A stretch of DNA of 64,000 nucleotides from Chryseosolibacter histidinae (GTDB lineage: Bacteria > Bacteroidota > Bacteroidia > Cytophagales > Cyclobacteriaceae), in NCBI RefSeq assembly GCF_018598225.1, contig NZ_JAHESF010000006.1, forward strand, positions 186,001 through 250,000, read 5' to 3'. Positions 4,527 to 57,263 of the stretch are shown here, piece by piece. The notes under the pieces are model-generated. The model saw only the letters and a list, made by a program, of their open reading frames with translations. It searched no databases and was not told where the DNA came from. Position 1 is the first letter of the stretch. Every line of letters starts with the position of its first letter. A program made the position numbers and the translations under genes.

Positions 4527-4618
4527 AACGAATACTGAATATCGAACGCCGAATGTTGAAGTTGAGGTGGTCACATCCTTCGGCCTTCGAAATTCGACAT
4601 TCGTTATTCGATATTCAA
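4527..4618. repeat. Heptamer-built palindromic element (CGAATAC family)
   Basis: The left arm (4527-4566) is a run of degenerate 7-mers such as CGAATAC, TGAATAT, CGAACGC and CGAATGT. A loop of about 20 bases follows, then a right arm (about 4585-4618) of complementary 7-mers (TTCGAAA, TTCGACA, TTCGTTA, TTCGATA). It has the same architecture as the other intergenic elements in the window but a different core sequence. It lies between the amylase and the susE terminator. Confidence 0.75.
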
Positions 4619-4621
4619 GCA

Positions 4622-4654
4622 GATAAAAGAGGCTGCCTCTTGCAAGACAGCCTC
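4622..4654 (-). terminator. Rho-independent terminator of the susC-susE operon
   Basis: On the minus strand the arms GAGGCTG and CAGCCTC form a 7-bp stem around a 12-base loop, followed by TTTTAT. It sits 18 bases after the susE-like stop codon and should separate the transporter operon from the amylase gene. Confidence 0.75.
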
Positions 4655-4671
4655 CGGGTTTAGGTTAGGAA

Positions 4672-6420
4672 TTATTGTGGCGTGATGGTGTACTTGTATC
4701 CGGTAATAGGATCGAGTATCATCTCAATTACGTAAGTGCCTGCTGTTACGGCGATATCACTGCCTCCGTATTCCAGGCTTCCATTGGCGCCCGTGTCACC
4801 GAAGTTAGTATCCCAGCCGTCATTGGCCCTGAACTTTATGTTACCATTGAAAAGGGTTATGGTCTTTGTCCACTTGTAACTGCCTTTTCCGCCTACGAAG
4901 GTCATATCATCGTCACTTGCCCAGCCCGCGTCGTTGCCAGTTCTCGCAGATCCTATGATACCCCATGCCATGGGCTCGACTTTATATTTCAGGGTATTGT
5001 AATCCAATGTAATCCGGTAGAATCCACTGGCATCGATCGTGGCGTTGTCTTCGTCATCCTGGGCGAGGTCGCCGGAGATCACGCCGTTGCTCACTGAGCG
5101 GCTTTGTTTTTTAGAGCCCCAGTCTCCCGCCCAATCCTGCACCTGCAGGAACTTAAAACCTTCACCGGTTTCCATATAGGCATAGATCTCGAACACATTG
5201 GTTGCTTTTTTAACAAATTTGACGGAGTTGCCCGGGTTCCAGCCAGCGGAGGTCGAGCCACCTACCAGGAACATATCTGTAGGCGGCGTGAACGCGGTAA
5301 GCTTGAATTTGCCGGTAGCGAAATCAGCCCTTACGAAATAACCTGAGGCATTTTGCACCTTGATGTTATCACCACCGAAAGCGTACTCCGTTCCGGAAGT
5401 GATGGTTGAACCCGTCGAGCTTCCCCAGTTCACGTCCCAGCTTCCGCAGGTCAGCACAAATTTGAACTCTGCATTCGCAGGAATATTGATCAGGGACTCG
5501 AACACACCGCCGCCTTTGTTGGTGAGCTGGATGGCATCTGTACAGTTATTTGACCAGTTGTTCGTGAAAGACCCCACGATGTACAATGTGGGGACATCGA
5601 AAATCTCGAACCACACAAACCGTGTCTCTGGAGCATAGCTGAAGTCATTCACGGTAGCCTGCACACGCCAGAACAACCCGTCGGTGTAAGTGATGCCGTG
5701 CAGCAGCTCGATCAGCTTCTTATGTGTCAGGGTAAGTGTGCTGGCCGTTCCATTGTTGTCAGCGTCCAGGGTGAGCACGGGATTGGCAAAACCGTCAGCA
5801 GTAGTGGCAGCGATCCATTTGTATTTTACAGTTCCCTGTGTGGAAGTGGCTGCTGACCACGAAAACACAACGTTCTGGTTAGGCGTGCGAATCCCGTCCA
5901 GGAAAAGCTTCTGGTTGGGAGAAGGTGCTGCATAGGTGAACTCACCAATGCCGGTTGGCGAAACAGAAAGTTTCAACGCAAAACTGCCTGCTGCCTTTAC
6001 CTTATTCTCTCCGAGCTCGTTAACGGTTTTGGCTTCCACCGTCCAGATAAAATCAGACGTGCCACCGGAAGAAGCAATATTAGATAAGGTGCTCATGGTA
6101 AGCGTGACCTTGGGCGATTTACCTTCATTGTCAGCGTCAACAGCCAATAGCGGTGCCGTGAAGTCGTTGCCCGCTTTGTCCAGCAGGAAACGGTAAGTGG
6201 GCGTACCGCCAAGGCCGGTTTTGGCGGCCTCCCACTCCAGCACAATGGCTTTTTGCGGTGTACCGGGATTCAGTGTAAGCGCGGTGAAGTTGGCGGGAGT
6301 TACCAGCTTGAAGCTGCTGATGGACTCGCCCTTCCCGATATTCTCATTTTCCTCGTTATCGCACGCTGCGAAAACCAGCGTGATGATGCAGAGCTTGAAT
6401 ATATAGTGTAGAATCTTCAT
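4672..6420 (-). CDS. SusE/SusF-family outer-membrane starch-binding lipoprotein
   Basis: 582 residues. The N-terminus ends in a lipobox (LVFAAC, Cys near 19), so it is a lipoprotein, probably surface-exposed. Two SusE-type domains follow (about 35-140 and 150-265; each has an F-T-A-L/K-L-F-x-G start and a 'V-x-F-x-W' strand). The C-terminal half holds three repeated modules beginning L-Y-I-V-G-S-F, M-F-L-V-G-G-S and W-G-I-I-G-S-A, typical of SusE/SusF carbohydrate-binding domains. Its role is to hold alpha-glucan near the SusCD pore. It ends the susC-susD-lipoprotein-secreted-protein-susE run and is followed by a terminator. Confidence 0.88.
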   Translation of the reverse strand: MKILHYIFKLCIITLVFAACDNEENENIGKGESISSFKLVTPANFTALTLNPGTPQKAIVLEWEAAKTGLGGTPTYRFLLDKAGNDFTAPLLAVDADNEGKSPKVTLTMSTLSNIASSGGTSDFIWTVEAKTVNELGENKVKAAGSFALKLSVSPTGIGEFTYAAPSPNQKLFLDGIRTPNQNVVFSWSAATSTQGTVKYKWIAATTADGFANPVLTLDADNNGTASTLTLTHKKLIELLHGITYTDGLFWRVQATVNDFSYAPETRFVWFEIFDVPTLYIVGSFTNNWSNNCTDAIQLTNKGGGVFESLINIPANAEFKFVLTCGSWDVNWGSSTGSTITSGTEYAFGGDNIKVQNASGYFVRADFATGKFKLTAFTPPTDMFLVGGSTSAGWNPGNSVKFVKKATNVFEIYAYMETGEGFKFLQVQDWAGDWGSKKQSRSVSNGVISGDLAQDDEDNATIDASGFYRITLDYNTLKYKVEPMAWGIIGSARTGNDAGWASDDDMTFVGGKGSYKWTKTITLFNGNIKFRANDGWDTNFGDTGANGSLEYGGSDIAVTAGTYVIEMILDPITGYKYTITPQ

Positions 6421-6437
6421 GTAGGTCGATGTTTAGA

Positions 6438-7196
6438 TTACTGGAAGAACACAAGAGAGAATTCATCCGACTGAACGTTGCTGCCAGTGCTTGAAAAACG
6501 GTATTTGATCGAGCGAACCTCGCTGCTGCTGAAGTTGAAGCTGGGCATGATGCGGATATAATGCAATCCGTTGCCGGCATTCACGGTAGCAGCGTTCTCG
6601 ATCTTTCCGATCTCCGCGTTGGCCTCATTGTAGGCCCGGATGGTAACCTTGAAATTGCTCAGCTCATACTTGAGCGCCGGAACTGTGGCGATCGTCTGAT
6701 CGAGGTACAGGGTAACAACATCATCTTTGGTGACTTTGGTCGGGAAAATGCGGTTGACTTTGGGTGTGAACACCAGCGGCTCTACATTGATGAGCACGTC
6801 GGTATCCGACTGCTTGCCATCACCCCAGTCTGCGCTCTTCAGCTTGAGGCCGATCTTTTTGATCTCAGAAGGCGGCTTGGCATAAAAAGCCGACGGAACA
6901 ATTGTAATGGAATACACATTGGCTGACACCCGTGTCATTTTCGCCTTCTCGGTACTGGCACCGCCGGCAGGGTTCACGTTGGTAGGTGCGTCGCAGTTGG
7001 CTGAACAACCTTCGGAGATCCAGGCCCACATCCATACATCGCCGGTATATCCTGCCAGCGATGTGCCCGTAACATCCACGGTAATGGTGATCTCGTCCTC
7101 AGCCGTAAATGAAGGCGGGGCCACTGTAGCTTTGGGTTGAGCATACGCTGCTACCACCCCTGTCAGAAAAAGTATAGGTAATAATAGTCTCTTCAT
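6438..7196 (-). CDS. Secreted PUL accessory protein, DUF4961-like
   Basis: 252 residues with a signal peptide (MKRLLLPILFLTGVVAAYAQ) and no lipobox. Residues about 28-140 resemble the amylase N-terminus: TVDVTGTSLAG, W-x-W-A-W-I-S-E-G-C-S-x-x-C-D-A-P-T-N-V-N-P, then EIKKIGLKLKSADWGDGKQSD. The paired Cys may form a disulfide. The second half (about 145-252) is another beta-rich domain. It lies 17 bases before susE and is clearly co-transcribed with susCD. I infer a glycan-binding or adaptor role because the same module is fused to the amylase; the DUF name is from memory and no biochemical role is known to me. Confidence 0.7.
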   Translation of the reverse strand: MKRLLLPILFLTGVVAAYAQPKATVAPPSFTAEDEITITVDVTGTSLAGYTGDVWMWAWISEGCSANCDAPTNVNPAGGASTEKAKMTRVSANVYSITIVPSAFYAKPPSEIKKIGLKLKSADWGDGKQSDTDVLINVEPLVFTPKVNRIFPTKVTKDDVVTLYLDQTIATVPALKYELSNFKVTIRAYNEANAEIGKIENAATVNAGNGLHYIRIMPSFNFSSSEVRSIKYRFSSTGSNVQSDEFSLVFFQ

Positions 7197-7202
7197 AACA
7201 AA

Positions 7203-7718
7203 TCATTCTTTGGTGAAAGAATACTGATAAGTGACAACTGCTTCCGGTACACCAGCTTTGGGCTGGGTACGGATGAGCTTGAAGATCATCTCTCCATTGT
7301 TCAGCCCTGCAAAAGAGCCCAGCTCGATGCTGGTGCCGCTGCTTCCGGAGAAAGTGATCTTGCTCGGGTAGTTGACATCGTCAACGGACCAGTTACCAGA
7401 TGAAATGCCACTCCCGATGATGTTGGGCGAATTGCCGGCCTGCACGGTAAAGGTTGCAGGCGCATTGCCTGACACGCTGAGCACCAGCTTGAAATCCTTG
7501 AACGCGAAGTCATTGGTGATATCCTGAAGCTGTGCGAAGGACGGAAAGCCTTTGCGCTCTGCGTCATTGTCGCGCTGTACCACTTTGCTGAGGGTCCAGG
7601 TGCCGGCGAGCTTGGGTACAATAGGCTCCCGTGCGCCTAAGGCCGGGAACTCGTCCGGCTGGCAGCACAGCAGCACCAGCGCTATGAGTGTAAATGAAAT
7701 GGATCTATAGTAGTTCAT
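7203..7718 (-). CDS. DUF5004/lipocalin-like lipoprotein of the starch locus
   Basis: 171 residues. The signal LIALVLLCCQ gives a lipobox with Cys near 18 or 19. The mature part is a small beta-barrel-like domain starting P-K-L-A-G-T-W-T-L-S-K-V, the usual opening of lipocalin-like/DUF5004 proteins, and ending with regular strands. It sits between susD (21 bases upstream) and the DUF4961-like protein (6 bases downstream). It is probably a periplasmic or surface accessory of the SusCD complex. The family call rests on the W-x-L opening and context; function unknown. Confidence 0.65.
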   Translation of the reverse strand: MNYYRSISFTLIALVLLCCQPDEFPALGAREPIVPKLAGTWTLSKVVQRDNDAERKGFPSFAQLQDITNDFAFKDFKLVLSVSGNAPATFTVQAGNSPNIIGSGISSGNWSVDDVNYPSKITFSGSSGTSIELGSFAGLNNGEMIFKLIRTQPKAGVPEAVVTYQYSFTKE

Positions 7719-7739
7719 AATTGATGTCGTGTTTGGTGA

Positions 7740-9137: not shown

Positions 9138-9146
9138 GATGATCTT

Positions 9147-12257: not shown

Positions 12258-12297
12258 AGGTTAATGATTAGGGATTAATTGGAAGGCGAGAATTACC

Positions 12298-12309
12298 TCA
12301 ACCGTTTGA
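12298..12309. promoter_or_regulatory. Candidate LacI-type operator 1, near the susC start
   Basis: TCAACCGTTTGA is an imperfect palindrome centred on CG. Its core CAACCGTTTG differs by one base from CAAACGTTTG at the pckA promoter and by two from the core of operator 2. It lies about 41 bases upstream of the susC start codon. Confidence 0.45.
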
Positions 12310-12383
12310 AAAATAGGTTTTGTGGTAATCCAAAACCTGAAACCAGCAATAAAAATTCACGAAATCGTGCCCGTTAACGAACG

Positions 12384-13510: not shown

Positions 13511-13522
13511 AATAGTAGAATA

Positions 13523-13694
13523 GTCGATGGTCCATAGTCCATAGCCGTGCATCGGTTGGATTATGGACCATTGCTTTTTACTTCATTTCCATCTTCTCGA
13601 GTAACTCTCCCATACTTACGCAATCGACTATACGTACTGCGCATCCACGGTTTTATCGCGGCATGCCATGGACTATGGACCATCGACCATGGAC
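13523..13694. repeat. Heptamer-built palindromic element (GGTCCATA family)
   Basis: The left arm GATGGTCCATAGTCCATAGC (13524-13543) and right arm about 13664-13693 (CATGGACTATGGACCATCG then ACCATGGAC) are complementary and built of degenerate 7-mers. The inner segment of about 120 bases has one more copy (ATTATGGACCATTG). The right arm creates a false in-frame ATG at 13668 that extends the GH31 ORF. Confidence 0.75.
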
Positions 13695-13748
13695 TTTTAT
13701 CCCAATTTCCTTACTTTCGAAAAGTTAACCATCCAACATCCATTCTTC

Positions 13749-16184: not shown

Positions 16185-17717
16185 ATGAGTACTGCAACCA
16201 TGACCTTCACCAAACCCAGGCTCAGCTTCTGGCAGATCTGGAACATGAGCTTCGGGTTCCTCGGCATCCAGTTCGGCTTTGCGCTGCAGAATGCCAATAC
16301 GAGCCGCATCTTTTCAACACTCGGTGCCAACCCTGATGATCTTGCCATCCTCTGGCTTGCTGCGCCGGTAACGGGATTGCTCGTACAACCGCTTATCGGC
16401 TACTACAGCGACCGCACCTGGCACCCCGTGTGGGGGCGCCGCAGACCATACTTCGCCATCGGCGCATTGCTGGCATCCATCTCGTTGTGTGTAATGCCCA
16501 ATTCCTCCTTCTTGTTTATGGCGGCGGGAACACTCTGGATCATGGATGCCTCCATCAACATCAGCATGGAGCCGTTCCGCGCTTTTGTGGGCGACAAACT
16601 TCCGCCGTCGCAAAGGACCACCGGTTTTGCCATGCAGAGCTTTTTTATCGGCATTGGTGCCATCGTGGCCTCTTACCTCCCCTATATCTTCAACAGGTTC
16701 ATGGGCATCTCCAACACCGCAGCGGTTGCCGGAGAGGTAAGTGACAACGTGAAGTATTCATTCTATGCCGGGGCTGCCATGCTTTTTATCACCGTGATGT
16801 GGACCGTGCTCAGCACCAAAGAATATCCGCCTGACCCGGCCTTCGAATCGGCGCTGAAATCCAAACAAAAAAAGAACATCGAGAACGAAGGGCTGTATCA
16901 GCAGAAGTTCATGAGAACAGGACTGGTGCTGGCCGCGCTGGGCACGCTGCTGTCCCTGGTCATCGCTATGTTTGCGCTTGAAAAGGAGCTTTTTGTGCTG
17001 GCAATAGGCCTGGCGTTGTTCGGCGTCGTTCACATCATGGCGTCATACCTCATCCGGCAAAACCGCTCCTATCTCGGCATTGTGCACATTGTAAAGGACT
17101 TCAATACCATGCCGCGCACCATGATCCAGCTGGCCTATGTGCAGTTCTTTTCGTGGTTCGCCTTGTTTGCCATGTGGATCTATACCACCCCCGCGGTGAC
17201 CAGTCATATTTTCAAGACCACCGATCCCCGCTCCGCTGCGTATAACGATGGCGCCGACCTCGTAGGCAAATTGTTCGGCGACTACAACGGCATTGCCGCG
17301 CTGGCAGCCATTGCGTTGCCTTTTATTGCGCGTTATACAAGTCGCCGCGTCACTCACCTTATCGCCCTGAGCTGTGGCGGCGTCGGACTCATTTCATTCC
17401 TGTTCATTTCAGATCCCGGTATGCTTTGGCTTCCCATGATCGGCGTCGGCATTGCGTGGGCGAGCATCCTTTCCATTCCTTATGCCATGCTCTCGGGCTC
17501 ACTACCCTCAGAGAAGATGGGTTATTACATGGGGGTATTCAACTTCTTCATCGTGATACCACAGATCGTGGCGGCTACACTTCTGGGATTCCTGCTGAAC
17601 AAAGTGTTTGGTGGTCAATCCATTTATGTGCTGGTGGCCGGAGGTGTGTCAATGATCGTGGCCGGGCTGTTGAGCTTGATGGTAAATGACCGTGATGAGG
17701 TTAATCCGGGGGAGTAA
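16185..17717 (+). CDS. MFS sugar:cation symporter, SLC45/GPH type (probable maltose transporter)
   Basis: 510 residues with about 12 hydrophobic segments. The loop after the second helix has D-R-T-W-H-P-V-W-G-R-R-R-P-Y, the signature of the sucrose/maltose SLC45-like group; SMEPFRAFVGDKLPPSQRT is another typical motif. It lies between GH31 and an esterase and follows lacI, so it probably carries maltose or short maltodextrins across the inner membrane after SusCD import. The ATG at 16185 starts MSTATMTF; the second Met at 16200 is an alternative start. Confidence 0.87.
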   Translation: MSTATMTFTKPRLSFWQIWNMSFGFLGIQFGFALQNANTSRIFSTLGANPDDLAILWLAAPVTGLLVQPLIGYYSDRTWHPVWGRRRPYFAIGALLASISLCVMPNSSFLFMAAGTLWIMDASINISMEPFRAFVGDKLPPSQRTTGFAMQSFFIGIGAIVASYLPYIFNRFMGISNTAAVAGEVSDNVKYSFYAGAAMLFITVMWTVLSTKEYPPDPAFESALKSKQKKNIENEGLYQQKFMRTGLVLAALGTLLSLVIAMFALEKELFVLAIGLALFGVVHIMASYLIRQNRSYLGIVHIVKDFNTMPRTMIQLAYVQFFSWFALFAMWIYTTPAVTSHIFKTTDPRSAAYNDGADLVGKLFGDYNGIAALAAIALPFIARYTSRRVTHLIALSCGGVGLISFLFISDPGMLWLPMIGVGIAWASILSIPYAMLSGSLPSEKMGYYMGVFNFFIVIPQIVAATLLGFLLNKVFGGQSIYVLVAGGVSMIVAGLLSLMVNDRDEVNPGE

Positions 17718-17761
17718 GTTTAAAGTTTAAGGTCTCAGGTTTAAAGTTTAATGTTTAAAGT
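17718..17761. repeat. Heptamer tandem repeat (GTTTAAA family), single arm
   Basis: Directly after the symporter stop, six degenerate 7-mers run in tandem: GTTTAAA, GTTTAAG, GTCTCAG, GTTTAAA, GTTTAAT, GTTTAAA. No complementary arm is seen nearby, so it may be half an element. Confidence 0.75.
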
Positions 17762-19085: not shown

Positions 19086-19202
19086 TATATAATAATTCTA
19101 TATTCTATATTCTTCTAATCAAACCTACATCCTATTTCCCAAATCCCGATTCTGCCGTAAATTCGGCACCTGATTTGATTTCATTCATCAAACCCCTGGT
19201 AT

Positions 19203-20341: not shown

Positions 20342-20513
20342 TCGTCCACAGTCCACGGCAGTTGGGGTATAAACTCTTCTGAAATACAGAATCAAGGAGC
20401 CCTTTTTCTCGTAGAGGAAGGGCTTCTTAGTTTTTGGAAAGCCTTATTCAGAACTTAACCTGGCTAGGGGAATCTATATGCCGTGGACTGTGGACCGTCG
20501 ACTGTGGACTTTT
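20342..20513. repeat. Heptamer-built palindromic element (GTCCACA family) enclosing a terminator
   Basis: The left arm CGTCCACAGTCCACGGCAG (20343-20361) is complementary to the right arm at about 20480-20512 (CCGTGGACTGTGGACC then GTCGACTGTGGAC). Between the arms lies the terminator of the preceding gene. The same family occurs at 38028-38268 and 57206-57263. Confidence 0.75.
20394..20436 (+). terminator. Terminator of the TPR-like lipoprotein gene
   Basis: AAGGAGCCCTT and AAGGGCTTCTT pair around a loop of about 14 bases, followed by TTTTT at 20432-20436. Confidence 0.65.
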
Positions 20514-24054: not shown

Positions 24055-24243
24055 ACAGGATGGACAGGATTTACAAGATTCGCAGGATGGACCAGGATTA
24101 ACCAGGATTAAAGATTCACGGGATCAGTCAGGATCTAATGGATTGACAGGACGAACAGGATTGGTCTTAATTAAATATTATGGGCTTTCCTGATGACCCC
24201 GGGCATTTATCCTGTCAATCCTGAAAATCCTTTAATCCTGGTT
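24055..24243. repeat. Dispersed palindromic repeat of ACAGGATTA-type units
   Basis: The 331-base gap 23961-24291 between divergent genes is filled mainly by this element. The left part (24055-24165) is a tandem of degenerate 9-10 base units such as ACAGGATGG, ACAGGATTT and ACCAGGATTA. The right part (24208-24242) carries the complement (ATCCTGTCA, ATCCTGAAA, ATCCTTTA, ATCCTGG). The unit is longer than in the heptamer elements but the architecture is the same. Confidence 0.75.
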
Positions 24244-25146: not shown

Positions 25147-25148
25147 AT

Positions 25149-25275
25149 CAGTTTGCCGGTTGCCAGTTGCCGGTTTAGAGAATAGTATACATCATTTGTG
25201 GGCTTAGTTCAGAATTCAAAAGTGCTTCTGTATAGTACTGAACTGGCAACCCGTAACTGGCAACTGGCAACTTTT
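25149..25275. repeat. Heptamer-built palindromic element (GCCGGTT family)
   Basis: Left arm GCCGGTTGCCAGTTGCCGGT (about 25156-25175) and right arm about 25240-25275 (AACTGGC, AACCCGT, AACTGGC, AACTGGC) are complementary 7-mer tandems. About 65 unique bases lie between. The right arm runs up to the promoter region of the next gene. Confidence 0.75.
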
Positions 25276-25302: not shown

Positions 25303-26499
25303 GTGAAATACGACATCATTATCGTTGGCGGCGGAATTGTAGGACTGGGCACGGCGCTGAACCTCATCAACAGCAATCCCAGGTACAAGATCCTGGTGCT
25401 TGAAAAGGAGCCACAGCTGGCATCACACCAGACCGGCAACAACAGCGGCGTGATCCACTCAGGCCTGTACTATAAGCCGGGAAGCCTCAAGGCCCGCAAC
25501 TGTATCCATGGCTACAACCTGCTGGTGGACTTCTGCCGCCAGAATGATATTCCTTTCGAGCTCTGTGGCAAGATCGTGGTAGCCACCGACGAGCAGGAAC
25601 TTCCGTTGTTAAAAAATCTCTATGACCGCGGCCACCAGAACGGCCTGAAGAATTTCAGAATGCTGCGCAGCGAAGAGCTGAAAGAATACGAGCCTCACGT
25701 AACAGGCCTGGCCGGATTTTTTGTTCCCCAAACCGGTATCGTAGACTATAAGGTGGTTGCCGAGAAATATGCCGAGCTGATCCGCCAGAAAGGAGGCGTG
25801 ATCAACCTGGGTGAAAAGGTCACGGACATCAAGCTTGAATCCGCTGCCGTAACTGTGGTCACCACACGTTCCAGCTACAGCAGCTCGCTGATCGTCAATT
25901 GCGCCGGCCTCTACTCAGACAAGATCGCCAGGCTCACCACACCTGACCTCAATGTGAAGATCATTCCTTTCAGGGGCGAATACTACAAGCTGAAGAAAGA
26001 CAAAGAATACCTGGTCAAGAACCTCATCTATCCTGTACCCGATCCGAACTTCCCTTTCCTGGGTGTTCACTTCACCCGCATGATGAAAGGTGGCGTCGAG
26101 GCTGGTCCCAACGCCGTGTTGGCTTTCAGTCGCGAAGGATATAAGAAATCAGACATCAACCTGGGCGAGCTGTCAGAGACCCTGGCATGGCCTGGATTTC
26201 AGAAAGTAGCCAGGAAATACTGGAAAACCGGGATGGGTGAAATGTACCGCTCATTCTCGAAGGCAGCCTTCACCAAAGCCCTGCAGAAGCTGATCCCCGA
26301 GGTACGGGAGACAGACCTCGTTGAAGGTGGTGCCGGCGTACGCGCGCAAGCCTGCGATCGCACGGGAGGCCTGGTGGATGACTTCCTCATCGTTGAAAAA
26401 CAGCAGGTGATCAATGTCTGCAACGCACCCTCGCCGGCGGCTACGTCTTCGTTAGCGATCGGAGAAACGGTGGCTGCGCTGGCGATGAAGAGAGTTTGA
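25303..26499 (+). CDS. lhgO: L-2-hydroxyglutarate oxidase (FAD-dependent)
   Basis: 398 residues starting at a GTG codon (25303), which places the Rossmann motif (YDIIIVGGGIVGLGTALNL) at the very N-terminus; no in-frame ATG precedes it. Family motifs are SHQTGNNSGVIHSGLYYKPGSLKARNC, PQTGIVDYKVVAEKYA, IPFRGEYYKL, PDPNFPFLGVHFTRM, VEAGPNAVLAF and GGAGVRAQACDRTGGLVDDF. The enzyme oxidises L-2-hydroxyglutarate to 2-oxoglutarate, passing electrons from FAD to the membrane quinone pool or oxygen. It removes a by-product of malate dehydrogenase. No functional link to its neighbours is seen. Confidence 0.92.
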   Translation: MKYDIIIVGGGIVGLGTALNLINSNPRYKILVLEKEPQLASHQTGNNSGVIHSGLYYKPGSLKARNCIHGYNLLVDFCRQNDIPFELCGKIVVATDEQELPLLKNLYDRGHQNGLKNFRMLRSEELKEYEPHVTGLAGFFVPQTGIVDYKVVAEKYAELIRQKGGVINLGEKVTDIKLESAAVTVVTTRSSYSSSLIVNCAGLYSDKIARLTTPDLNVKIIPFRGEYYKLKKDKEYLVKNLIYPVPDPNFPFLGVHFTRMMKGGVEAGPNAVLAFSREGYKKSDINLGELSETLAWPGFQKVARKYWKTGMGEMYRSFSKAAFTKALQKLIPEVRETDLVEGGAGVRAQACDRTGGLVDDFLIVEKQQVINVCNAPSPAATSSLAIGETVAALAMKRV

Positions 26500-26501
26500 A
26501 A

Positions 26502-26578
26502 AGGTACGAGGTACGAGATACGAACTACGACAGCTCGGTGCATTCATCGTACCTCGTAATTCGTACCTCGTACCTTGT
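26502..26578. repeat. Heptamer-built palindromic element (TACGAGG family), copy 1
   Basis: Begins three bases after the lhgO stop. Left arm of TACGAGG-type 7-mers, a loop with CAGCTCGGTGCATTCATC, and a right arm of TCGTACC/TCGTAAT-type 7-mers. The loop sequence recurs at 28740-28760, which marks these as copies of one element. Confidence 0.85.
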
Positions 26579-26609
26579 AAATGTTAAGCGTTAGACCGCT
26601 GTACTTGGG

Positions 26610-27344
26610 CTAGAATATGCTCATCACGACTCCACCCTGCAATCCCCACACATTTACCTGCTGGTAGTAGCGCTGAAATACGGCGCCGGCGGTGAGGTAG
26701 CCGTGAAGTTTGCCACGTTCGAAGAAGCCGTAGCGGAAGTGAGCACTGACCTCTTTGCGCGCTTCCGAACCACGATACTCGGCTACGCCACCCAGTTTGC
26801 CGAAAGGTTTGATCTGCACCCCTGCTGTCCACTCCGGATATGACTGTCGCATCTCATAAGCTTCAGTGATCACACCGCCCCCCACACGAACCGTAACATC
26901 CCTTGTGGTAATAAAGTTGAGCTGCAATACCTGCCATTCATTGGTGCGCAGGTGTTTGACGCCGTCGAAGTCTTCTTCAAGGATATAGTTGAATCTGAAA
27001 TCGGTGGAGAACAACCCCCAGTTTGCACGCAGACGCGGATTGGCGATATAATAACTGGATGGCTGCGCGGCTACCTGGAGCATGGCATCAAGCGAGATGA
27101 TGGACGGGATCTCGCGCTTGCGGCTCACAGCATGCTGCTGGGCGTTGATCACTTCCACGAACATGAACTGAAAGAAGAAGTCGATCATAAAGCTACCGGA
27201 GCTACCGGATCCTCCGGAGGAGCCTCCGCTCCCGATCTCGCGTGATCCTTTTGACTTGGATGCACTTTTGATCTCGTCGACCTGTGCCCGGGTTGTGCCG
27301 GCGAGCACCAGGAATACAAGGATGATGAGTAGAATGCGGGTCAT
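26610..27344 (-). CDS. Secreted beta-rich protein, probable outer-membrane protein, unknown function
   Basis: 244 residues. Signal peptide MTRILLIILVFLVLAGTTRAQ is followed by a low-complexity Ser/Gly linker (EIGSGGSSGGSGSSGS) and then amphipathic strands (ANWGLFSTDFRFNYIL; WQVLQLNFITTRDVTVRVGGGV; TAGVQIKPFGKLGGVAEYRG; HFRYGFFERGKLHGYLTAGAVF), ending in VMSIF. This pattern suggests a small outer-membrane barrel, but the terminal aromatic signature is weak. The gene is flanked by repeat elements on both sides and appears monocistronic. No family is recognised. Confidence 0.7.
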   Translation of the reverse strand: MTRILLIILVFLVLAGTTRAQVDEIKSASKSKGSREIGSGGSSGGSGSSGSFMIDFFFQFMFVEVINAQQHAVSRKREIPSIISLDAMLQVAAQPSSYYIANPRLRANWGLFSTDFRFNYILEEDFDGVKHLRTNEWQVLQLNFITTRDVTVRVGGGVITEAYEMRQSYPEWTAGVQIKPFGKLGGVAEYRGSEARKEVSAHFRYGFFERGKLHGYLTAGAVFQRYYQQVNVWGLQGGVVMSIF

Positions 27345-27458: not shown

Positions 27459-27536
27459 AGGTACGGGGTACGAATTACGAGGTACGATAAATCCAGGATC
27501 GGGCATCGTACTTCGTATCTCGTACTTCGTACTTCT
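27459..27536. repeat. Heptamer-built palindromic element (TACGAGG family), copy 2
   Basis: Left arm TACGGGGTACGAATTACGAG..., loop with ATCCAGGATCGGGCATCG, right arm of TCGTACT/TCGTATC 7-mers ending 16 bases before the moeB-like start. It lies between divergent genes, so it occupies promoter DNA. Confidence 0.85.
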
Positions 27537-27552
27537 TTACTAAATTGGCGTC

Positions 27553-28707: not shown

Positions 28708-28710
28708 ATT

Positions 28711-28781
28711 AAGTACGAGGTACGAAATACGAGGTACGGCAGCTCGATCTGCATTCATCGTATTTCGTACTTCGTATCTCT
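28711..28781. repeat. Heptamer-built palindromic element (TACGAGG family), copy 3
   Basis: Begins four bases after the moeB-like stop and ends six bases before the stop of the convergent sulfhydrylase gene, filling the whole gap. Left arm TACGAGGTACGAAA..., loop GCAGCTCGATCTGCATTCAT, right arm TCGTATTTCGTACTTCGTAT. It could serve as a terminator hairpin for both genes. Confidence 0.85.
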
Positions 28782-37984: not shown

Positions 37985-38015
37985 TAGTAGTAGGCAGTAG
38001 GCAAACGGCGGTAGG
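37985..38015. repeat. Heptamer tandem (AGTAGGC family)
   Basis: AGTAGGC, AGTAGGC, AAACGGC, GGTAGGC in tandem just upstream of the translocase-like start. No complementary arm is seen, so only half an element is present. Confidence 0.6.
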
Positions 38016-38073
38016 CAAAAAATGCAGCCCACGGTCGACGGGCGACTGTCCACGGCATGTGGAGCAATGCCTA

Positions 38074-38165
38074 AAGTACGAGGTACGAAATGCGAGGTAC
38101 ATAAATGCAGATCGGGCAGCCGTACTTCGTTCCCGATAGCTATCGGGATCGTACCTCGTACTTAA
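38074..38165. repeat. Heptamer-built palindromic element (TACGAGG family), copy 4, interrupted
   Basis: Left arm TACGAGGTACGAAATGCGAG..., loop AAATGCAGATCGGGCAGC, and a right arm split by an 18-bp palindrome at 38131-38148. Without that palindrome the right arm reads in regular TCGTACx 7-mers. Confidence 0.85.
38131..38148. repeat. 18-bp perfect palindrome TCCCGATAGCTATCGGGA, copy 1
   Basis: It interrupts the right arm of a TACGAGG element. The same palindrome occurs at 40245-40262 and, with one mismatch, at 49272-49289, each time within another repeat. Confidence 0.9.
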
Positions 38166-38195
38166 GAAAAAAGCCCCTTCAGGATGGAAGAGGCT
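38166..38195 (-). terminator. Terminator of the ompH-like gene
   Basis: On the minus strand AGCCTCTTC, loop CATCCT, GAAGGGGCT, then TTTTTTC: a stem with one mismatch and a T tract, about 75 bases after the stop. Confidence 0.7.
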
Positions 38196-38269
38196 ACTAT
38201 ATTATGAATCCAGTCTACGAGGCTCACACTGACCGTCCGTGGACCGTCGACTGTCGACCGTGGACTATT

Positions 38270-45272: not shown

Positions 45273-45357
45273 AAGTACGGTGCGCTAAATACGAAATACG
45301 AGGTACGATAGCCAGGTCTGGGATTTACCGTACCTCGTATTTCGTACTTCGTACCTT
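45273..45357. repeat. Heptamer-built palindromic element (TACGAGG family), copy 5
   Basis: Left arm TACGGTGCGCTAAATACGAA..., loop ATAGCCAGGTCTGGGATT, right arm of TCGTATT/TCGTACT 7-mers. It fills the gap between the secG terminator and the convergent gene's stop. Confidence 0.8.
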
Positions 45358-45372
45358 ACAGATAACCTTCGC

Positions 45373-49238: not shown

Positions 49239-49257
49239 TTTCGGATACTGTGTAAAA

Positions 49258-49347
49258 AGTACGAGGTACGATCTCGATAGCTATCGGGAACAAGGTACGA
49301 TGAGTGCAGATCGAGCTATCGTACTTCGTATTTCGTACCTCGTACTT
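49258..49347. repeat. Heptamer-built palindromic element (TACGAGG family), copy 6, interrupted
   Basis: The left arm GTACGAGGTACGAT is interrupted by a copy of the 18-bp palindrome (49272-49289, one mismatch). Then the loop TGAGTGCAGATCGAGCTATC and a right arm of TCGTATT/TCGTACC 7-mers that stops four bases before the OPT stop codon. Confidence 0.85.
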
Positions 49348-49351
49348 TGGA

Positions 49352-51391
49352 TCAGTCTTTCTTCACCGCCAATCTGTACAGCATAAACATCATCGTAAAG
49401 AAGAACAACGTTCCCAGGATCATGTAACCATTCAGGCTGAAAGTCTCCGTCATGAAGTGCTCCAGGCTCATGCGCCTCATTTCTTCACGGTAGAAAACTC
49501 CGAGCACAGCAGCGATCACACCTGTAATGGCGCCGCCTGCGATAAGGCCGGTGGCGAAGAGGCTGCCACGGCTCAGCTCGTTATCATCTGCGCGCTCGCC
49601 TTTTCTTTCAGCTCTCCAGTCAACATATCCTTTCAGGGCGCCGCCGGCAAATATGGGAAGCGTGGTAGACAGGGGAAGGTAAAGACCGATGGCAAACGCC
49701 AGGGCTTTGATATTGCAGAGCTCGAGTGTAACGGCAATGAACACACCTACCATCACAAACTGCCAGTCGAGGTTGAACGAAAGGATGCCGCGGGTAAGCG
49801 TGGCCATGAGCGTAGCCTGAGGTGCAGGGAAATCGTCACCCCCGATGGCGTGATGGATATTATTCGCCAGCATCTCTGGGGTGGGCGTATCCAGCACCCT
49901 GATCACCAAACCAATGGCGATGGACGACACAATGGCGCCGATAAAAAGGGCCAGCTGCTGATATTTTGGAGTCGCTCCAACGATATAACCGGTCTTCAGG
50001 TCCTGTGAAGTACCACCCGCATTGGCTGCAGCAATACAGATCATACCTCCTACCACAATGGCCAGAGGTTCGTAGAATTTACCCGACCAGCCCACACTGG
50101 TGAAGATGAGACAGGTGCCCATGAGCGTAGCGATGGTCATTCCGGAGATCGGATTGTTGCTGGTCCCTACCAATCCTACGATGCGGCTCGATACGGTCAC
50201 GAAGAAGAAACCAAAGATCACCACGAGTATACCGATGAGCAGTTTCTGGAAGACACCGTCGCCGGGAATGCCCGGAAGAATGGAAGTTAAGAGCACCAGC
50301 ACAATGCTGCCGAAGATCACCACCTTAAATGAATAATCGCGGTCTGTTCTCGCAATGCTGGCTTCACCTTTCTCTTTCAGCGAGCCCACGCTTTCGCGGA
50401 AGGAGCTGATGATGGTGGGGATGGTCTTGAGCAATGTGATAAAACCTCCTGCGGCCACGGCACCAGCGCCGATCTGGCGAATGTAGGCCCGGTATAGTGC
50501 GTCAGCATAGTTGCCGAAGGTATGGGTCTCCGGATTCCAGTTGCCGTACCCTCCTGCCGTGGTCATGCTGGCCAGGTTGCCGAGCTTCACCAACTGAAGG
50601 GCTATGGTATCGGGTGCTACCAGCGTTGACAGCAGCGGAATGATGGCCCACCACGCCAGCACCGATCCGGCTACCAGCACACCCGAAATTCGTGGACCGA
50701 TGATGTAGCCTACACCGAGATATTCGGGTGTGATCTCGCCGCGCGTAGCTGCAGACGGCCAATATTTATTGGCAGCGCTCGTCACGTACGACGGCATCTC
50801 GGAGATAACAAAGAACACTTTCTGAAGCAGCGCGTAAACGAACGCTACTCCCATTCCTGTGAAGGCAGTCTGTGCAAACACGCCACCCTTCTCTCCCGCC
50901 TGCAGCACCGAAGCACAGGCTGTTCCTTCAGGATATGGAAGTGTGCCGTGCTCTTTCACGATCAGCGACCTCCGCAGTGGGATCATCATCATGGTGCCCA
51001 GCATACCGCCGAACGCCGCCAGGATGAGGATGGTGAGATAATCGAAATAACCTTCGCCCACGCTCTTTCCGTCAGCTCCTGGCGACAGAAAAAGAAACCC
51101 CGGCAACGTGAAGGCTACACCGGCAGCGATGGATTCGCCGGCAGATCCAGTGGTCTGGATGATGTTGTTCTCCAGGATGGTGGTCTTCAAAAATTTCCTT
51201 CCCAGCGTGATGGCGATCACCGCGATGGGGATAGACGCCGTAACGGTAAGACCCGCCTTAAGGGCCAGGTACACCGTAGACGAGCCGAAAAGGATCCCGA
51301 AGAGCGAACCGAATATGATAGACTTGGCCGTAAACTCAGCAACGTTGAGCTCAGGCGGTACGTAGGGTTTGAAAGTTTTACTTTCCTGCAT
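49352..51391 (-). CDS. OPT-family oligopeptide transporter
   Basis: 679 residues with about 15-16 hydrophobic segments. Family features: SIIFGSLFGILFGSSTVYLALKAGLTVTASIPIAVIAITLGR, NNIIQTTGSAGESIAAGVAFTLPGFLFL, LPYPEGTACASVLQAGEKGG and GGTSQDLKTGYIVGATPKYQQLALFIG. Bacterial OPT proteins import oligopeptides or metal-peptide chelates with protons; which one cannot be told. It follows the POT gene by 32 bases, giving a two-gene peptide-uptake operon divergent from pckA. Confidence 0.92.
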   Translation of the reverse strand: MQESKTFKPYVPPELNVAEFTAKSIIFGSLFGILFGSSTVYLALKAGLTVTASIPIAVIAITLGRKFLKTTILENNIIQTTGSAGESIAAGVAFTLPGFLFLSPGADGKSVGEGYFDYLTILILAAFGGMLGTMMMIPLRRSLIVKEHGTLPYPEGTACASVLQAGEKGGVFAQTAFTGMGVAFVYALLQKVFFVISEMPSYVTSAANKYWPSAATRGEITPEYLGVGYIIGPRISGVLVAGSVLAWWAIIPLLSTLVAPDTIALQLVKLGNLASMTTAGGYGNWNPETHTFGNYADALYRAYIRQIGAGAVAAGGFITLLKTIPTIISSFRESVGSLKEKGEASIARTDRDYSFKVVIFGSIVLVLLTSILPGIPGDGVFQKLLIGILVVIFGFFFVTVSSRIVGLVGTSNNPISGMTIATLMGTCLIFTSVGWSGKFYEPLAIVVGGMICIAAANAGGTSQDLKTGYIVGATPKYQQLALFIGAIVSSIAIGLVIRVLDTPTPEMLANNIHHAIGGDDFPAPQATLMATLTRGILSFNLDWQFVMVGVFIAVTLELCNIKALAFAIGLYLPLSTTLPIFAGGALKGYVDWRAERKGERADDNELSRGSLFATGLIAGGAITGVIAAVLGVFYREEMRRMSLEHFMTETFSLNGYMILGTLFFFTMMFMLYRLAVKKD

Positions 51392-51423
51392 AGATAAAGG
51401 TTAAATGAGTTCTGTCAAAGGTC

Positions 51424-52923: not shown

Positions 52924-53051
52924 TCAGGTATTCTTTCATTTAGCGTAATCCGGGATCGCGTAATAATATTTTAATCGCGGCTCAAAGTAGGGTGATTAAG
53001 TCACATTCGCAAGCCGGCTTACACAGGCCAAAAATAGAAAAAAGCTCTTTG

Positions 53052-53061
53052 CAAACGTTTG
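53052..53061. promoter_or_regulatory. LacI-type palindrome on the pckA promoter
   Basis: CAAACGTTTG is a perfect 10-bp palindrome centred on CG. Its right half (TTTG, 53058-53061) is the -33 element of the pckA promoter, so a bound regulator would block polymerase. It differs by one base from cores in the susC-lacI region (CAAACGATTG, CAACCGTTTG). Confidence 0.6.
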
Positions 53062-53086
53062 AAATGGCATAAATTTAGTATCTTTG
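53058..53086 (+). promoter_or_regulatory. pckA promoter (TTTG, 17-base spacer, TATCTTTG)
   Basis: TTTG at 53058-53061 and TATCTTTG at 53079-53086 match the Bacteroidota -33/-7 consensus. The -7 box lies 24 bases before the ATG at 53111. Confidence 0.75.
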
Positions 53087-53110
53087 CTTAACTCATTAAC
53101 CCAAACACAC

Positions 53111-54724: not shown

Positions 54725-54751
54725 TTGAGCATTCTCATTAACCAACATTAT

Positions 54752-54790
54752 GGCCACCTGGATTATTCCGGGTGGCTTTTCTATTTTTTC
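54752..54790 (+). terminator. Terminator of pckA
   Basis: GCCACCTGG and CCGGGTGGC pair with one mismatch around ATTATT, followed by TTTTCTATTTTTT, 27 bases after the stop. Confidence 0.85.
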
Positions 54791-54797
54791 ATCAGTT

Positions 54798-54813
54798 CCG
54801 AAAACGTTTCCGG
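54798..54813. promoter_or_regulatory. AACGTT-centred palindrome between pckA and the next gene
   Basis: CCGAAAACGTTTCCGG is palindromic at 14 of 16 positions with central ACGT. It resembles LacI-family operators and lies about 84 bases before the next start codon. The outer bases differ from the pckA site, so another regulator may be involved. Confidence 0.35.
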
Positions 54814-54896
54814 GCCTGATTTTTTTTGTGTTTTTCCTATAATGTTTTTATAATTCTGATTCATAAGAATTACACTATAACCAAAAAGTATTACCT

Positions 54897-55367
54897 ATGA
54901 AACGTTTGAAAATTTTTCTGCCGGTCATGTTCGTCTTTGCTGTCACCATGAGCCAGGCACAGACAGCATCCCAATCTTTTAACGATGAAGATCTGAAGAA
55001 GTATGCCATTACCATGGATTCAGTGAAAGGCATGCAGGCAACACTTCAGGATATTATCGCAGAGATGGTACAGAAAAACACCGTGATGAGCGTAGCGCGT
55101 TACAATGAGTTGTTCAAGATAGCCAATGACCAGGCAAAGCTTACCGAAGCCAAAGCGACACCGGAAGAGATTAAGTTTGTGAATGATGTTGCGGCTAAAA
55201 GAAAAGAGGAAACGACCCGGATCAATAACACCTACCAGGCGCTTGCCAAAGAATACGTTGGCCTGAAAGCCTTCAATGCCATTAAAAAATCACTGGCCTC
55301 CGATGAAACGGTGAAAGCGAAGTATGATGCGATGAGCAAGGAGCTTGAATCGAAAGGTGGGGAGTAA
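54897..55367 (+). CDS. Secreted helical protein, DUF4168-like
   Basis: 156 residues. Signal peptide MKRLKIFLPVMFVFAVTMSQAQ is followed by SFNDEDLKKYAITMDSVKGM, the usual opening of DUF4168-like proteins, then helices rich in Lys, Glu and Ala to the end (IKKSLASDETVKAKYDAMSKELESKG). Probably periplasmic and all-helical. It has its own terminator at 55458 and a nearby palindrome at 54798. Function unknown; family named from the opening motif only. Confidence 0.65.
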   Translation: MKRLKIFLPVMFVFAVTMSQAQTASQSFNDEDLKKYAITMDSVKGMQATLQDIIAEMVQKNTVMSVARYNELFKIANDQAKLTEAKATPEEIKFVNDVAAKRKEETTRINNTYQALAKEYVGLKAFNAIKKSLASDETVKAKYDAMSKELESKGGE

Positions 55368-55368
55368 A

Positions 55369-55402
55369 AAGAAGCCAGAAGTAAGGAGCCAGGAGTCAGG
55401 AG
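55369..55402. repeat. Heptamer tandem (GAAGCCA family), single arm
   Basis: GAAGCCA, GAAGTAA, GGAGCCA, GGAGTCA, GGAG in tandem directly after the stop of the preceding gene. No complementary arm was found. Confidence 0.6.
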
Positions 55403-55457
55403 AGGTTGAAGAATACCAATCAGTTAAGGGCTCTGATTTGCAAAGACAAGATACATG

Positions 55458-55484
55458 AAGCCGTCCAAAGGGGCGGCTTTTTTT
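55458..55484 (+). terminator. Terminator of the DUF4168-like gene
   Basis: AAGCCGTCC and GGGCGGCTT pair around a short loop, followed by a T tract. Confidence 0.85.
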
Positions 55485-55641
55485 ATTGGGGGACAACGCC
55501 TATCTTCGCGACTTTAAAACCCAGGGCGGGATAGACATTCAGCTATTGTAGTGTGCTTATGCAGCGTCGATAATGGCTGGTTGCCGGCTTACATTTGCTG
55601 CCTGCCCGGAATTAACAACCCCGATCACTGTTATCAGCGAT

Positions 55642-56433
55642 ATGAGATTAAAGACTATGGCCCTCCTCCTGCTCTCGAGCCTGGCCATCCATTCATTTGC
55701 ACAAAAGAACCGGCCGTTTTCCAAAGGAGAACACTATCTGTCGTCGCTTTTAGATAATTCAATTGTATTTGATACTGCAAACCTGGTTTCGGGCATCAAT
55801 CACTCCCGCGTATGGGATACAGAAAATGCCTGGAGAAGCTGGAACATTGTGGAAAATTTTACCTACGGCAAAGACCGGGGCAGTCTTCCCATGATCGCCG
55901 ATCTGAACTCGCTTCACCCCTATTTCAGAGATAAGATCGTGGAGCTCATTCGTGTTTGCAAGGCCCAGGGAATTGAACTCGCCGTGGTGGAATCATTCAG
56001 AACACACGCCAAACAAGCCGAGTATTTTGGCATGGGCCGCAAGTATACACGCTCAAAAGGTGGTAAATCAAAACATCAGTATGGCCTTGCCGTTGATGTG
56101 GTACCCGTTGTTAACTCTATTGCGCTGTGGGATGACCAGGTGCTCTGGAAAAAGATCGGTGTTGCCGGCGAGAGACTGGGACTTCGCTGGGGAGGCCGCT
56201 GGAGATCACCTTACGATCCCGCGCACTTCGAGTGGAGCGGAGGCATCACTACGTATGAATTAGCCAATGGAATTCAGCCACGCGTTCCGGCAAGCTTAGC
56301 CAATGTTTATCCCTGTCTTGGTGAGGAGGTTGAGCGCCTTCAGAAATACTGGGATGCCTGGGAAACTGAGCAGGCAGTGTCGGCGAGAAACGGTAGCCCT
56401 GAGACGGGGATGCATGGTGCGGTGAAACCTTGA
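55642..56433 (+). CDS. M15-family peptidoglycan peptidase (CwlK/VanY-like), secreted
   Basis: 263 residues from the ATG at 55642, giving signal peptide MRLKTMALLLLSSLAIHSFAQ; the longer frame from 55573 lacks a signal-like start. The M15 core is about 95-205: ELAVVESFRTHAKQAEYFGMGRKYTRSKGGKSKHQYGLAVDVVP, with zinc ligands His (KSKHQYG) and Asp (AVDVVP), and the later His in DPAHFEW. It should cleave D-Ala-containing or L-Ala-D-Glu bonds in cell-wall peptides. The C-terminal 50 residues are low in motif content. Convergent with the ompA-like gene. Confidence 0.87.
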   Translation: MRLKTMALLLLSSLAIHSFAQKNRPFSKGEHYLSSLLDNSIVFDTANLVSGINHSRVWDTENAWRSWNIVENFTYGKDRGSLPMIADLNSLHPYFRDKIVELIRVCKAQGIELAVVESFRTHAKQAEYFGMGRKYTRSKGGKSKHQYGLAVDVVPVVNSIALWDDQVLWKKIGVAGERLGLRWGGRWRSPYDPAHFEWSGGITTYELANGIQPRVPASLANVYPCLGEEVERLQKYWDAWETEQAVSARNGSPETGMHGAVKP

Positions 56434-56472
56434 TCACGATCACGGTGGCCATGGGTTGAAACCCCTGGATAT

Positions 56473-57150
56473 TTAATCTTTCAGGATCCGCATTTCAACG
56501 CGGCGGTTGCGGGCGCGGTCTTCATCTGTCATTTCATTGCCCAGTGGTTGGGTACCTCCGAACGCTTTTGTTTTGATCCTGTTCTTGGAAACTCCTTTGC
56601 TCACCAGGTAATTCTTCACGGCCTCTACCCTTTTCTGTGATAACTTCATGTTGCCTTTGGCATTGCCCTGGCTATCGGTGTGTCCTTCGAGCTGGATCAT
56701 GATGCGCTCATTCTCCATCATCATCTGCGCGATCTCGTCGAGCTCATCGTACGAGCTTTCGGCGATCACGGATTTGCCCTGGGGGAAAATAAGGTGATTG
56801 AGGCGGATGGTCTCACCTGCCGGGGTCAGCCTGATATCACGCTGGATGCGATGGCCTTCGCTGATATCTTCCGGATCGACAATGACCGTTCTGGGATTGT
56901 ATCCCTTGGCCTCCGCTGTGATCTGGTAACGTGCCGTGCCGAAGATCTCGAATGAGTAAGTGCTGTCGTTGAACTTTCCGTTGATGCTACCGGTAGGGAT
57001 ACTGCTATAATGAATGGATGCTTTAACGCCTTTGTTGGTTTTGGCATCCGTTACCTTTCCCTGGGCGACCATGCTTTCGATATCCTCCTGAGCAGCGCAG
57101 ACCGCTGGTATCAGGAGCATTGCCGCAGACATCAGACAAAGGCACTTCAT
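56473..57150 (-). CDS. OmpA-family peptidoglycan-binding protein with N-terminal carboxypeptidase-like regulatory domain
   Basis: 225 residues. Signal peptide to about 20 (LIPAVCAAQ). Residues about 28-105 form a beta-sandwich of the CarboxypepD_reg type (VAQGKVTDAKTNKGVKASIHY...YQITAEAKGYNPRTV). Residues about 118-225 are the OmpA C-terminal domain: FPQGKSVI, IQLEGHTDSQGNAKGNMKLSQKRVEAVKNYLVSKGV and ARNRRVEMRI, with the Asp and Arg that hold diaminopimelate. There is no barrel, so it is a periplasmic wall-binding protein, perhaps linked to gliding or T9SS components. Confidence 0.88.
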   Translation of the reverse strand: MKCLCLMSAAMLLIPAVCAAQEDIESMVAQGKVTDAKTNKGVKASIHYSSIPTGSINGKFNDSTYSFEIFGTARYQITAEAKGYNPRTVIVDPEDISEGHRIQRDIRLTPAGETIRLNHLIFPQGKSVIAESSYDELDEIAQMMMENERIMIQLEGHTDSQGNAKGNMKLSQKRVEAVKNYLVSKGVSKNRIKTKAFGGTQPLGNEMTDEDRARNRRVEMRILKD

Positions 57151-57205
57151 GTACCCAAGTTAAGGGGTTTTTGAGCGAATTCCTAATGATTTTCTAATGG
57201 TGTAG

Positions 57206-57263
57206 AAGTCCACGGTCCACAGTCGACAGTCCACCGCAGTGTGGTCTGTGGTGGACTGTGAAC
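57206..57263. repeat. Heptamer-built palindromic element (GTCCACA family)
   Basis: AGTCCAC, GGTCCAC, AGTCGAC, AGTCCAC on the left; short loop CGCAGT; then GTGGTCTGTGGTGGACTGTG on the right. Third copy of this family in the window, compact here. Confidence 0.8.

Follow-up and report, generated by a model that had tools for sequence, protein, structure and literature searches.

Convergent Tandem-Heptamer Arms as Lineage-Specific Repeats at Gene Ends in Chryseosolibacter histidinae and Relatives

Introduction

Degenerate heptamers repeated in tandem between genes characterize the short tandemly repeated repetitive (STRR) sequences of heterocystous cyanobacteria, which, to our knowledge, have not been described as four-unit convergent arms in many families, and placement at the 3′ ends of genes characterizes repetitive extragenic palindromic (REP) sequences and bacterial interspersed mosaic elements (BIMEs). 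Here, we analyze a class of intergenic elements sharing both features in Chryseosolibacter histidinae (Bacteroidota), whose genome is available as an 8.04 Mb draft in 122 contigs. The work follows up a 64,000-nt stretch of contig NZ_JAHESF010000006.1 (positions 186,001 to 250,000; ‘the window’), in which an earlier reading of the sequence, hereafter the original prediction, had described palindromes made of two arms of imperfect tandem heptamers and had named the STRRs as their only analogue. The class is real and abundant, and consists of lineage-specific gene-end repeats.

A closer analogue than the STRRs exists in Xanthomonas and Nostoc. According to the accessible part of Rehm et al. (2015; PMC4692102), G-rich heptamers, GGGANTN in Xanthomonas and GGGGA(C/T)T in Nostoc, occur preferentially in four units and form convergent pairs, 70 in one Xanthomonas species and 75 in another. 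They lie on the sense strand within 50 bp of stop codons or on the antisense strand upstream of open reading frames and are scarce between divergent genes; sister species carry prominent repeats at different genes, and the number four was tied to quadruplexes. The elements of C. histidinae share the intergenic tandem heptamers, the preference for four units, the convergent inverted pairs, the sense-strand position at stop codons and the scarcity in divergent gaps. They differ in that the accessible part of that paper describes one G-rich, quadruplex-linked unit, whereas here there are about ten families without quadruplex motifs, and in that the heptamers change between congeners.

Two other systems are comparable in part. 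The TAACTGA direct repeats of Beggiatoaceae, cyanobacteria and some Bacteroidetes, as presented in the accessible part of MacGregor (2015; PMC4679880), are likewise intergenic tandem heptamers, patchy over phyla and subject to 7-nt indels, with other heptamers in some of the same gaps; unlike the arms described here, they are direct repeats of one word, mostly before start codons in the main species, and no tandem TAACTGA run occurs in 804 kb of C. histidinae. Similarly, REP/BIME elements and their REP-associated tyrosine transposases (RAYTs) provide a precedent for many short, lineage-specific extragenic palindromes (PMC3733652), although heptamers go unmentioned in the accessible part of that paper, and here the RAYT link is weak and wide spacers are seldom alike. 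Multi-family convergent heptamer arms in Bacteroidota were undescribed among the literature matches listed, which mostly did not cover subscription papers and so give weak evidence of absence.

A Period of Seven in Intergenic DNA

A period-7 arm was called where at least 16 of 21 positions matched at lag 7, excluding runs longer than 200 nt. Three sets of sequence from the genome were used: 464 kb (the window plus 400 kb more), 804 kb (the sole basis for densities and gene context), and 1.264 Mb, including 460 kb picked mainly around TACGA matches; contigs C36, C45 and C63 were included because they carry Y1 transposase genes. The window contains 16 lag-7 arms, compared with a shuffle mean of 0.1 and with 0–2 arms at each of the other lags from 4 to 13, and the 804 kb contain 170, compared with 1–11 at those lags. 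Complementary partners were sought within 300 bp of each arm and scored against a control range from random places; a score of at least 14 was reached by 67 of 96 arms in the 464 kb and by 2 of 96 random places. All six window elements tried as RNA folded strongly (z −5.2 to −9.6). A tandem-repeat finder and direct reading located the arms where the original prediction had placed them, with the corrections given below. The palindromes are thereby confirmed, and both in the window and in the 804 kb the period exceeds chance and more than one family repeats. Searched against Rfam at gathering thresholds, the window gave zero matches.

In the 1.264 Mb set, 370 of 379 arms sort into about ten heptamer families, mostly present in both orientations, and nine are unassigned. 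The families are GTACGAR, GTCSACR with its sister GTCSATR, GTTRCCR, GTTTNAR, GGAGYMA, GTAATCR, GAATWTA, GAGATNT and two rare ones. Over the whole genome, the TACGA triplet pattern has 174 matches (overlaps counted) and the four-unit GTSSAC pattern 139. A GT frame common to all heptamers was considered and rejected: it is clear in this genome, weaker in a second genus and lacking in the congener G002 (both introduced below).

The number of units has an upper bound near four. Exact runs, counted in the 804 kb by regular expression and hence free of detector bias, rarely exceed four units in three of the four main families. Four-unit runs account for 40 of the 75 GTCSAY runs of at least two units, and a single run is longer; GTTRCC has 13 four-unit runs and none of 51 longer, TACGA has 7 and none of 41 longer, and GTTTNAR has 10 with 4 of 35 longer. 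Since this ceiling was counted by exact patterns, the detector is not its cause. Four is the commonest exact run in GTCSAY only and the maximum in GTTRCC and TACGA. With one mismatch per unit allowed, exactly four units are found in 113 of 204 detected arms and at least five in 35, in a count from which short arms are missed by the detector.

Layout and Gene Context

Arms face each other. With the ‘+’ orientation set for each family from its left arms, same-family neighbors within 300 bp are arranged ‘+−’ in 93 of 98 cases (‘++’ 2, ‘−−’ 2, ‘−+’ 1), and different-family neighbors keep the same tendency (‘+−’ 28, ‘++’ 9, ‘−−’ 4, ‘−+’ 2; n = 43). They are also confined to gaps between genes, as the original prediction had held for the window and as proves true nearly genome-wide: against gene calls from a home-made hexamer model, the midpoints of 9 of 206 arms fall inside called genes, and one lies deeper than 60 nt. 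The accompanying statement that all gene orientations occur is correct, but it masks a strong bias, with 3.63 arms per kb of convergent gap, 1.71 per kb of co-directional gap and 0.62 per kb of divergent gap. Where a co-directional gap holds arms (77 gaps), the median distance from the upstream stop codon to the start of the first arm is 1 nt. Arms abutting a stop codon are ‘+’ in the sense of the gene in 97 of 100 cases, and so are 47 of the 49 such arms that stand alone.

Turnover among Relatives

Judged by one protein, the closest named relatives of the source genome belong to Cyclobacteriaceae and Fulvivirgaceae. Both congeners of C. histidinae have genomes of about 5.8 Mb and lack TACGA triplets altogether, and only two of 56 other relatives have any (1 and 8). 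One congener, G002, is syntenic across most of the window and carries 32 lag-7 arms in 240 kb, compared with 0–6 at other lags from 4 to 13. Its words are different (AAGCTNC, AAATCTT, GTTTGTA, AACCAAT, AAAGCNN and others). Two gaps are filled in both genomes by unrelated words: where C. histidinae has the TACGA elements at 45273..45358 and 49256..49352, G002 has a GTTTGTA palindrome and AACCAAT arms, respectively. In 8 of the 10 comparable element-bearing gaps of the window, G002 has no period-7 arm. Arm densities in G002 are 1.53 per kb of convergent, 1.18 of co-directional and 0.50 of divergent gap, a divergent deficit that is not significant (p 0.08). Since one design is shared by unrelated heptamers, and the congener repeats it with other words, a generating process rather than descent from a single sequence is supported, as had been proposed. 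A separate locus of G002 (L145, 17597-18453) contains seven AAGCTNC arm copies 127-153 nt apart and resembles a tandem array of arm plus spacer.

The other congener, G001, shows one arm in 60 kb, and gaps with an element in C. histidinae are longer than their counterparts there (p 0.04). Samples of 0.3-20 kb from 20 relatives, many of them short, gave four lag-7 arms in total, so the trait looks patchy. Across the phylum, the four-unit GTSSAC pattern matches 7 of 395 genomes, C. histidinae included. Among viral contigs, the GTCCAC pattern matches one, a 7.5-kb contig with 75% G+C (L231), with GTCCACG runs at 1777-1817 and, inverted and 2.5 kb on, at 4359-4414, the latter with one GTCGAC unit.

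A second genus, which we take to be Algoriphagus, repeats much of the pattern. GTSSAC triplets occur in 28 of its 59 genomes, and stretches of eight genomes, picked around GTSSAC matches or neighboring them, show a lag-7 excess in seven; the eighth (G459) is unclear, with two arms in 20 kb. Its divergent gaps hold 0.13 arms per kb, compared with 1.44 and 1.53 elsewhere, and 11 of 123 arms lie deep in called genes. One species pair of this genus is about 92% identical in larger blocks. There, a comparison was feasible for 6 of the 19 arm clusters in G168; another 12 lacked an orthologous place in the DNA compared, and for one the interval was too long. Two of the six show length differences of 14 and 21 nt, whole multiples of the heptamer; one is alike and three are rearranged, with gained segments bounded by arms. 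Of the processes named in the original prediction, slippage thus finds support, as steps of 7 nt in this pair. At another locus of the genus (L219, 1623-1698), a single array in unbroken phase runs through TACTGAA, AACTGCT, CACTGTG, GTCTGTC and GACTGTG, and reads as if families were changing into one another.

Arms as the Probable Unit of Gain and Loss

We tentatively favor, at slightly less than even confidence, a reading in which the convergent heptamer arms are fast-changing DNA repeats of gene ends, and in which the unit gained or lost in families with wide spacers is one arm (up to about four heptamers, 28 bp) and not a whole palindrome. The two arms of an element are less complementary to each other than to arms of other elements in all six families tested (combined p 1e-6), the GTTTAAA family showing this without being significant alone. 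In GTCSAY, an odd GTCGAC unit occurs exactly once per arm in 17 of 30 elements, at positions (2,3) in 8, (3,2) in 6, (2,2) in 2, (4,3) in 1 and (3,3) in none; it is offset as (2,3) or (3,2) in 14 of 17 (one-sided Fisher p 0.0035). In the GTTGCC family, 10 of 18 elements have a unit with an extra base in one arm but not in the other (8 left, 2 right, never both). From the weaker complementarity of partners and the GTCGAC offset, an arm was probably not copied from its partner, perfect pairing instead being avoided, and the inverted copying of the original prediction is not supported.

Spacers and one informative locus bear on the same question. Among 64 spacers of at least 25 nt, 21 of 2,016 pairs are similar, compared with 0–2 after shuffling, and part of this similarity comes from fragments of other arms inside spacers. 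At L188, three neighboring gaps hold homologous GTTTAAA elements that are about 70-74% alike. In the first gap, a GTTGCC ‘+’ arm separates the older arm from the core, and a ‘−’ arm follows outside the older right arm. The second gap carries a GTTGCC arm at its stop codon and nowhere else, and the third lacks GTTGCC arms altogether. No target-site duplication was seen by eye at this single insertion. The locus suggests that arms were gained separately around older DNA, and, together with the weak complementarity of partner arms and the small number of alike spacers, it makes the arm, rather than the whole palindrome, appear to be the unit of gain. The GTCCACA pair at 38026-38269 likewise surrounds a terminator that is present, by eye, in G002 too. 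The convergent layout, the ceiling on unit number, the ‘+’ sense of lone arms at stop codons and the turnover between relatives also count in favor of this reading.

Arms would be copied or added, pointing inward, to the edges of older intergenic DNA, their source being a genome-wide pool of the same word, and slippage would afterwards add or remove 7 nt at a time. Where same-family arms came to flank old DNA, an imperfect stem-loop would result as a by-product. The repeats would be mostly self-spreading or neutral and tolerated at 3′ ends, any effect on mRNA ends being secondary.

Several observations weigh against this account. In GTTRCC and TACGA, exact runs of two to three units outnumber those of four, so ‘four’ is there a ceiling and not the commonest number. 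Gaps with an element are not significantly longer than their counterparts in G002 (p 0.11). Because ‘+’ was defined from left arms, the stop-codon rule is partly geometry for paired arms, and its evidence lies chiefly in lone arms and mixed-family neighbors; lone arms may in turn be relics of lost pairs. The rule is also weaker in the second genus, where stop-abutting arms classed by GT frame are 18 sense, 8 antisense and 4 ties. Avoidance of perfect pairing could reflect selection against stable long hairpins, not independent gain of arms. Similar partners exist for 23 of the 64 spacers, as copying of whole elements would produce in some cases. Among compact TACGA elements, 9 of 24 have one or the other of two short spacer cores, so that copying of whole elements remains likely for the TACGA family. 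At L188, just one side of the right-hand insertion is anchored, and the loci compared are about 70-74% alike. Finally, no agent was found: the search gave no clear link of Y1 genes to arms, and RVT_1 has no match in the source genome.

Alternative Origins

Unlikely, if still to be taken seriously, is the transposition of whole palindromes by a Y1 transposase (REP/RAYT or IS200-type) acting in trans on the folded strand, as for REPs. The original prediction had invoked an absent REP-type transposase; in fact, four Y1 genes are present in the genome, three of them RAYT-like as judged by length and match, and their tie to the elements is weak. One RAYT-like gene is accompanied, on one side, by a TACGA pair some 200 nt past its end; the 3.2-kb loci of the other two contain no period-7 arm. 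The spacer cores common to part of the TACGA family would follow from such transposition, and the offset GTCGAC mismatches and one-arm extra-base units recall strand-specific hairpins; against it, spacers of the wide families are rarely alike, arms occur singly, and all five Y1 matches of the arm-bearing G002 look IS200-like. By eye, two RAYT-like genes (L003 and L004) are flanked by a palindrome family of their own, GGCGCAAGTCTTC-like and distinct from the heptamer arms.

Two other ideas were discarded. For a telomerase-like reverse transcriptase adding heptamers, no RVT_1 match was found in the genome. Mobilization of the gene at 26610-27344 by the TACGA elements flanking it was rejected, as the gene occupies an unchanged position in G001, while G002 gave no match to it. 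Among ten genomes searched for SbcC, no match was found in C. histidinae, G001, G009 and G038, matches were sub-threshold in G002, G017 and G030, and only G040, G046 and G012 exceeded the cut-off; its absence as a permissive cause is suggestive, in too few genomes.

We likewise doubt that the elements are RNA stem-loops selected at 3′ ends to protect the mRNA end or insulate genes, their sequence being free as long as the arms pair. Their position at stop codons in convergent and co-directional gaps, the strong folds and the occupation of one gap by different families in two species would all be expected of such structures, as would the modest excess of T-tracts at the outer feet of ‘−’ arms (22 of 104). 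Yet T-tracts at arm feet are hardly enriched overall (31 of 206, or 15.0%, vs 12.6% of random gap windows; ‘+’ arms 9 of 102), and the 206 arms do not behave as intrinsic terminators, in which a T-tract directly follows the stem. No compensatory change upholding the pairing was seen, ordinary terminators lie beside or inside several elements (by eye), lone arms are common, and most comparable gaps of G002 are without any period-7 arm.

Local mutation, in which heptamer slippage and template switching make an array and its inverted partner on site, is improbable. The 7-nt steps among second-genus orthologues agree with it, as do 79 other loci in which lag 7 is mildly in excess (36 vs 4-15 at other lags from 4 to 11), and an earlier survey, as related in PMC4679880, had found heptamers to be more frequent than any other long simple repeat in most of its genomes. 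This reading is nevertheless largely contradicted by the lower complementarity within than between elements, and it sits poorly with the same few words at scores of loci and with different-family neighbors that keep the same polarity.

An artefact of assembly or contamination, conceivable in a draft of so many contigs, is very improbable for arms that sit between conserved syntenic genes and recur in G002, an assembly of five contigs, and in several second-genus genomes. Least probable of all are G-quadruplex elements as proposed for the Xanthomonas and Nostoc heptamers (PMC4692102, accessible part), an idea suggested by the comparable number of units, the convergence of pairs and the position at stop codons, but refuted for the sampled part of the genome by 0 quadruplex motifs in 204 arms and no GGGANTN tandem run in 804 kb.

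Elements of the Window

The elements of the window are listed in Table 1, and several corrections to the original prediction follow from them. The unit at 13523 is the heptamer GTCCATA, sister of GTCCACA; its reading as an octamer was wrong. At 57206, the left GTCCACA arm stands, whereas the right arm is weak. GTCCACA arms are present at 38028 as described, but the pair in fact surrounds a whole TACGA element and a terminator, which has a counterpart in the 83-nt gap of G002 (by eye). The arms at 17718, 37985 and 55369 are indeed single, with best partner scores within 300 bp of 8, 7 and 6, in the control range.

Table 1. Period-7 elements of the window (positions in the 64,000-nt stretch).
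Element	Coordinates	Strand	Arms	Evidence and remarks
Palindrome, heptamer ATTCGNN	4524..4620		4524-4553, 4576-4619	Complementarity score 20; folded
Palindrome, heptamer GTCCATA	13517..13698		13517-13548, 13663-13698	Spacer ~115 nt; score 22
Lone ‘+’ arm, heptamer GTTTAAA	17713..17766	+		Directly behind stop codon at 17717; no partner
Lone period-7 arm TATTCTA	19086..19113			Missing from original prediction; partner scores 6 and 6
GTCCACA pair	20342..20513		Short left arm ~20342-20361, right arm 20480-20513	Score 15
Palindrome, heptamer GTTGCCR	25147..25275		25147-25180, 25241-25275	Lag 7, partner score, fold
Palindrome, heptamer TACGANN	26496..26588			Score 23; folded
Palindrome, heptamer TACGANN	27459..27541			Lag 7, partner score, fold
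Palindrome, heptamer TACGANN	28710..28776			Within 79-nt convergent gap; lag 7, partner, G002 comparison, fold
Lone arm AGTAGGC	37985..38019			Tandem-repeat finder and direct reading; no partner
GTCCACA pair	38026..38269		38026-38055, 38233-38269	Score 22
TACGANN element	38074..38165			Right arm broken by small palindrome CCCGATAGCTATCGGG; direct reading
Palindrome, heptamer TACGANN	45273..45358			Lag 7, partner score, fold
TACGANN element	49256..49352			Left arm broken by CTCGATAGCTATCGGG; lag 7, partner score, direct reading
Lone ‘+’ arm, heptamer GGAGYMA	55370..55404	+		Directly behind stop codon at 55367; no partner
GTCCACA ‘+’ arm with degenerate right arm	57204..57263			Partner score 10-11, upper edge of control range

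The GTCCACA pair at 20342..20513 surrounds a terminator-like hairpin (by eye), and the gap of the GTTGCCR element measures 156 nt, compared with 54 nt for the orthologous gap of G002. By direct reading, the small palindrome CCCGATAGCTATCGGG splits two TACGA elements, at 38131-38148 and 49270-49287; with up to one mismatch it has 16 intergenic copies in the 804 kb and none in the samples of G001, G002 and G168. The gap before 24292 contains, at 24055-24240, two degenerate AGGAT-based repeats that form a palindrome; their period is 9-10, not 7, and a strict pattern matched only the right one of the two in the 804 kb.

Implications

About ten families obey much the same rules with no quadruplex motif in any arm examined, and a congener uses different words; the cause therefore lies outside quadruplexes, and the quadruplex explanation proposed in PMC4692102 cannot hold for the arms here. 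A wider generalization is possible, if doubtful: in several phyla, a sequence-independent machinery would equip the edges of intergenic DNA with inward-pointing arms, each some four heptamers (28 bp) long, using the current heptamer of the lineage, with palindromes, stop-codon placement and the number four as its signature and the Xanthomonas and Nostoc repeats as a special case. Such persistence of a layout through a change of sequence between sister species is unusual. A layout that stays the same while the word varies by family and species points to a little-studied, sequence-independent process, and the origin of high-copy extragenic palindromes becomes testable in these relatives.

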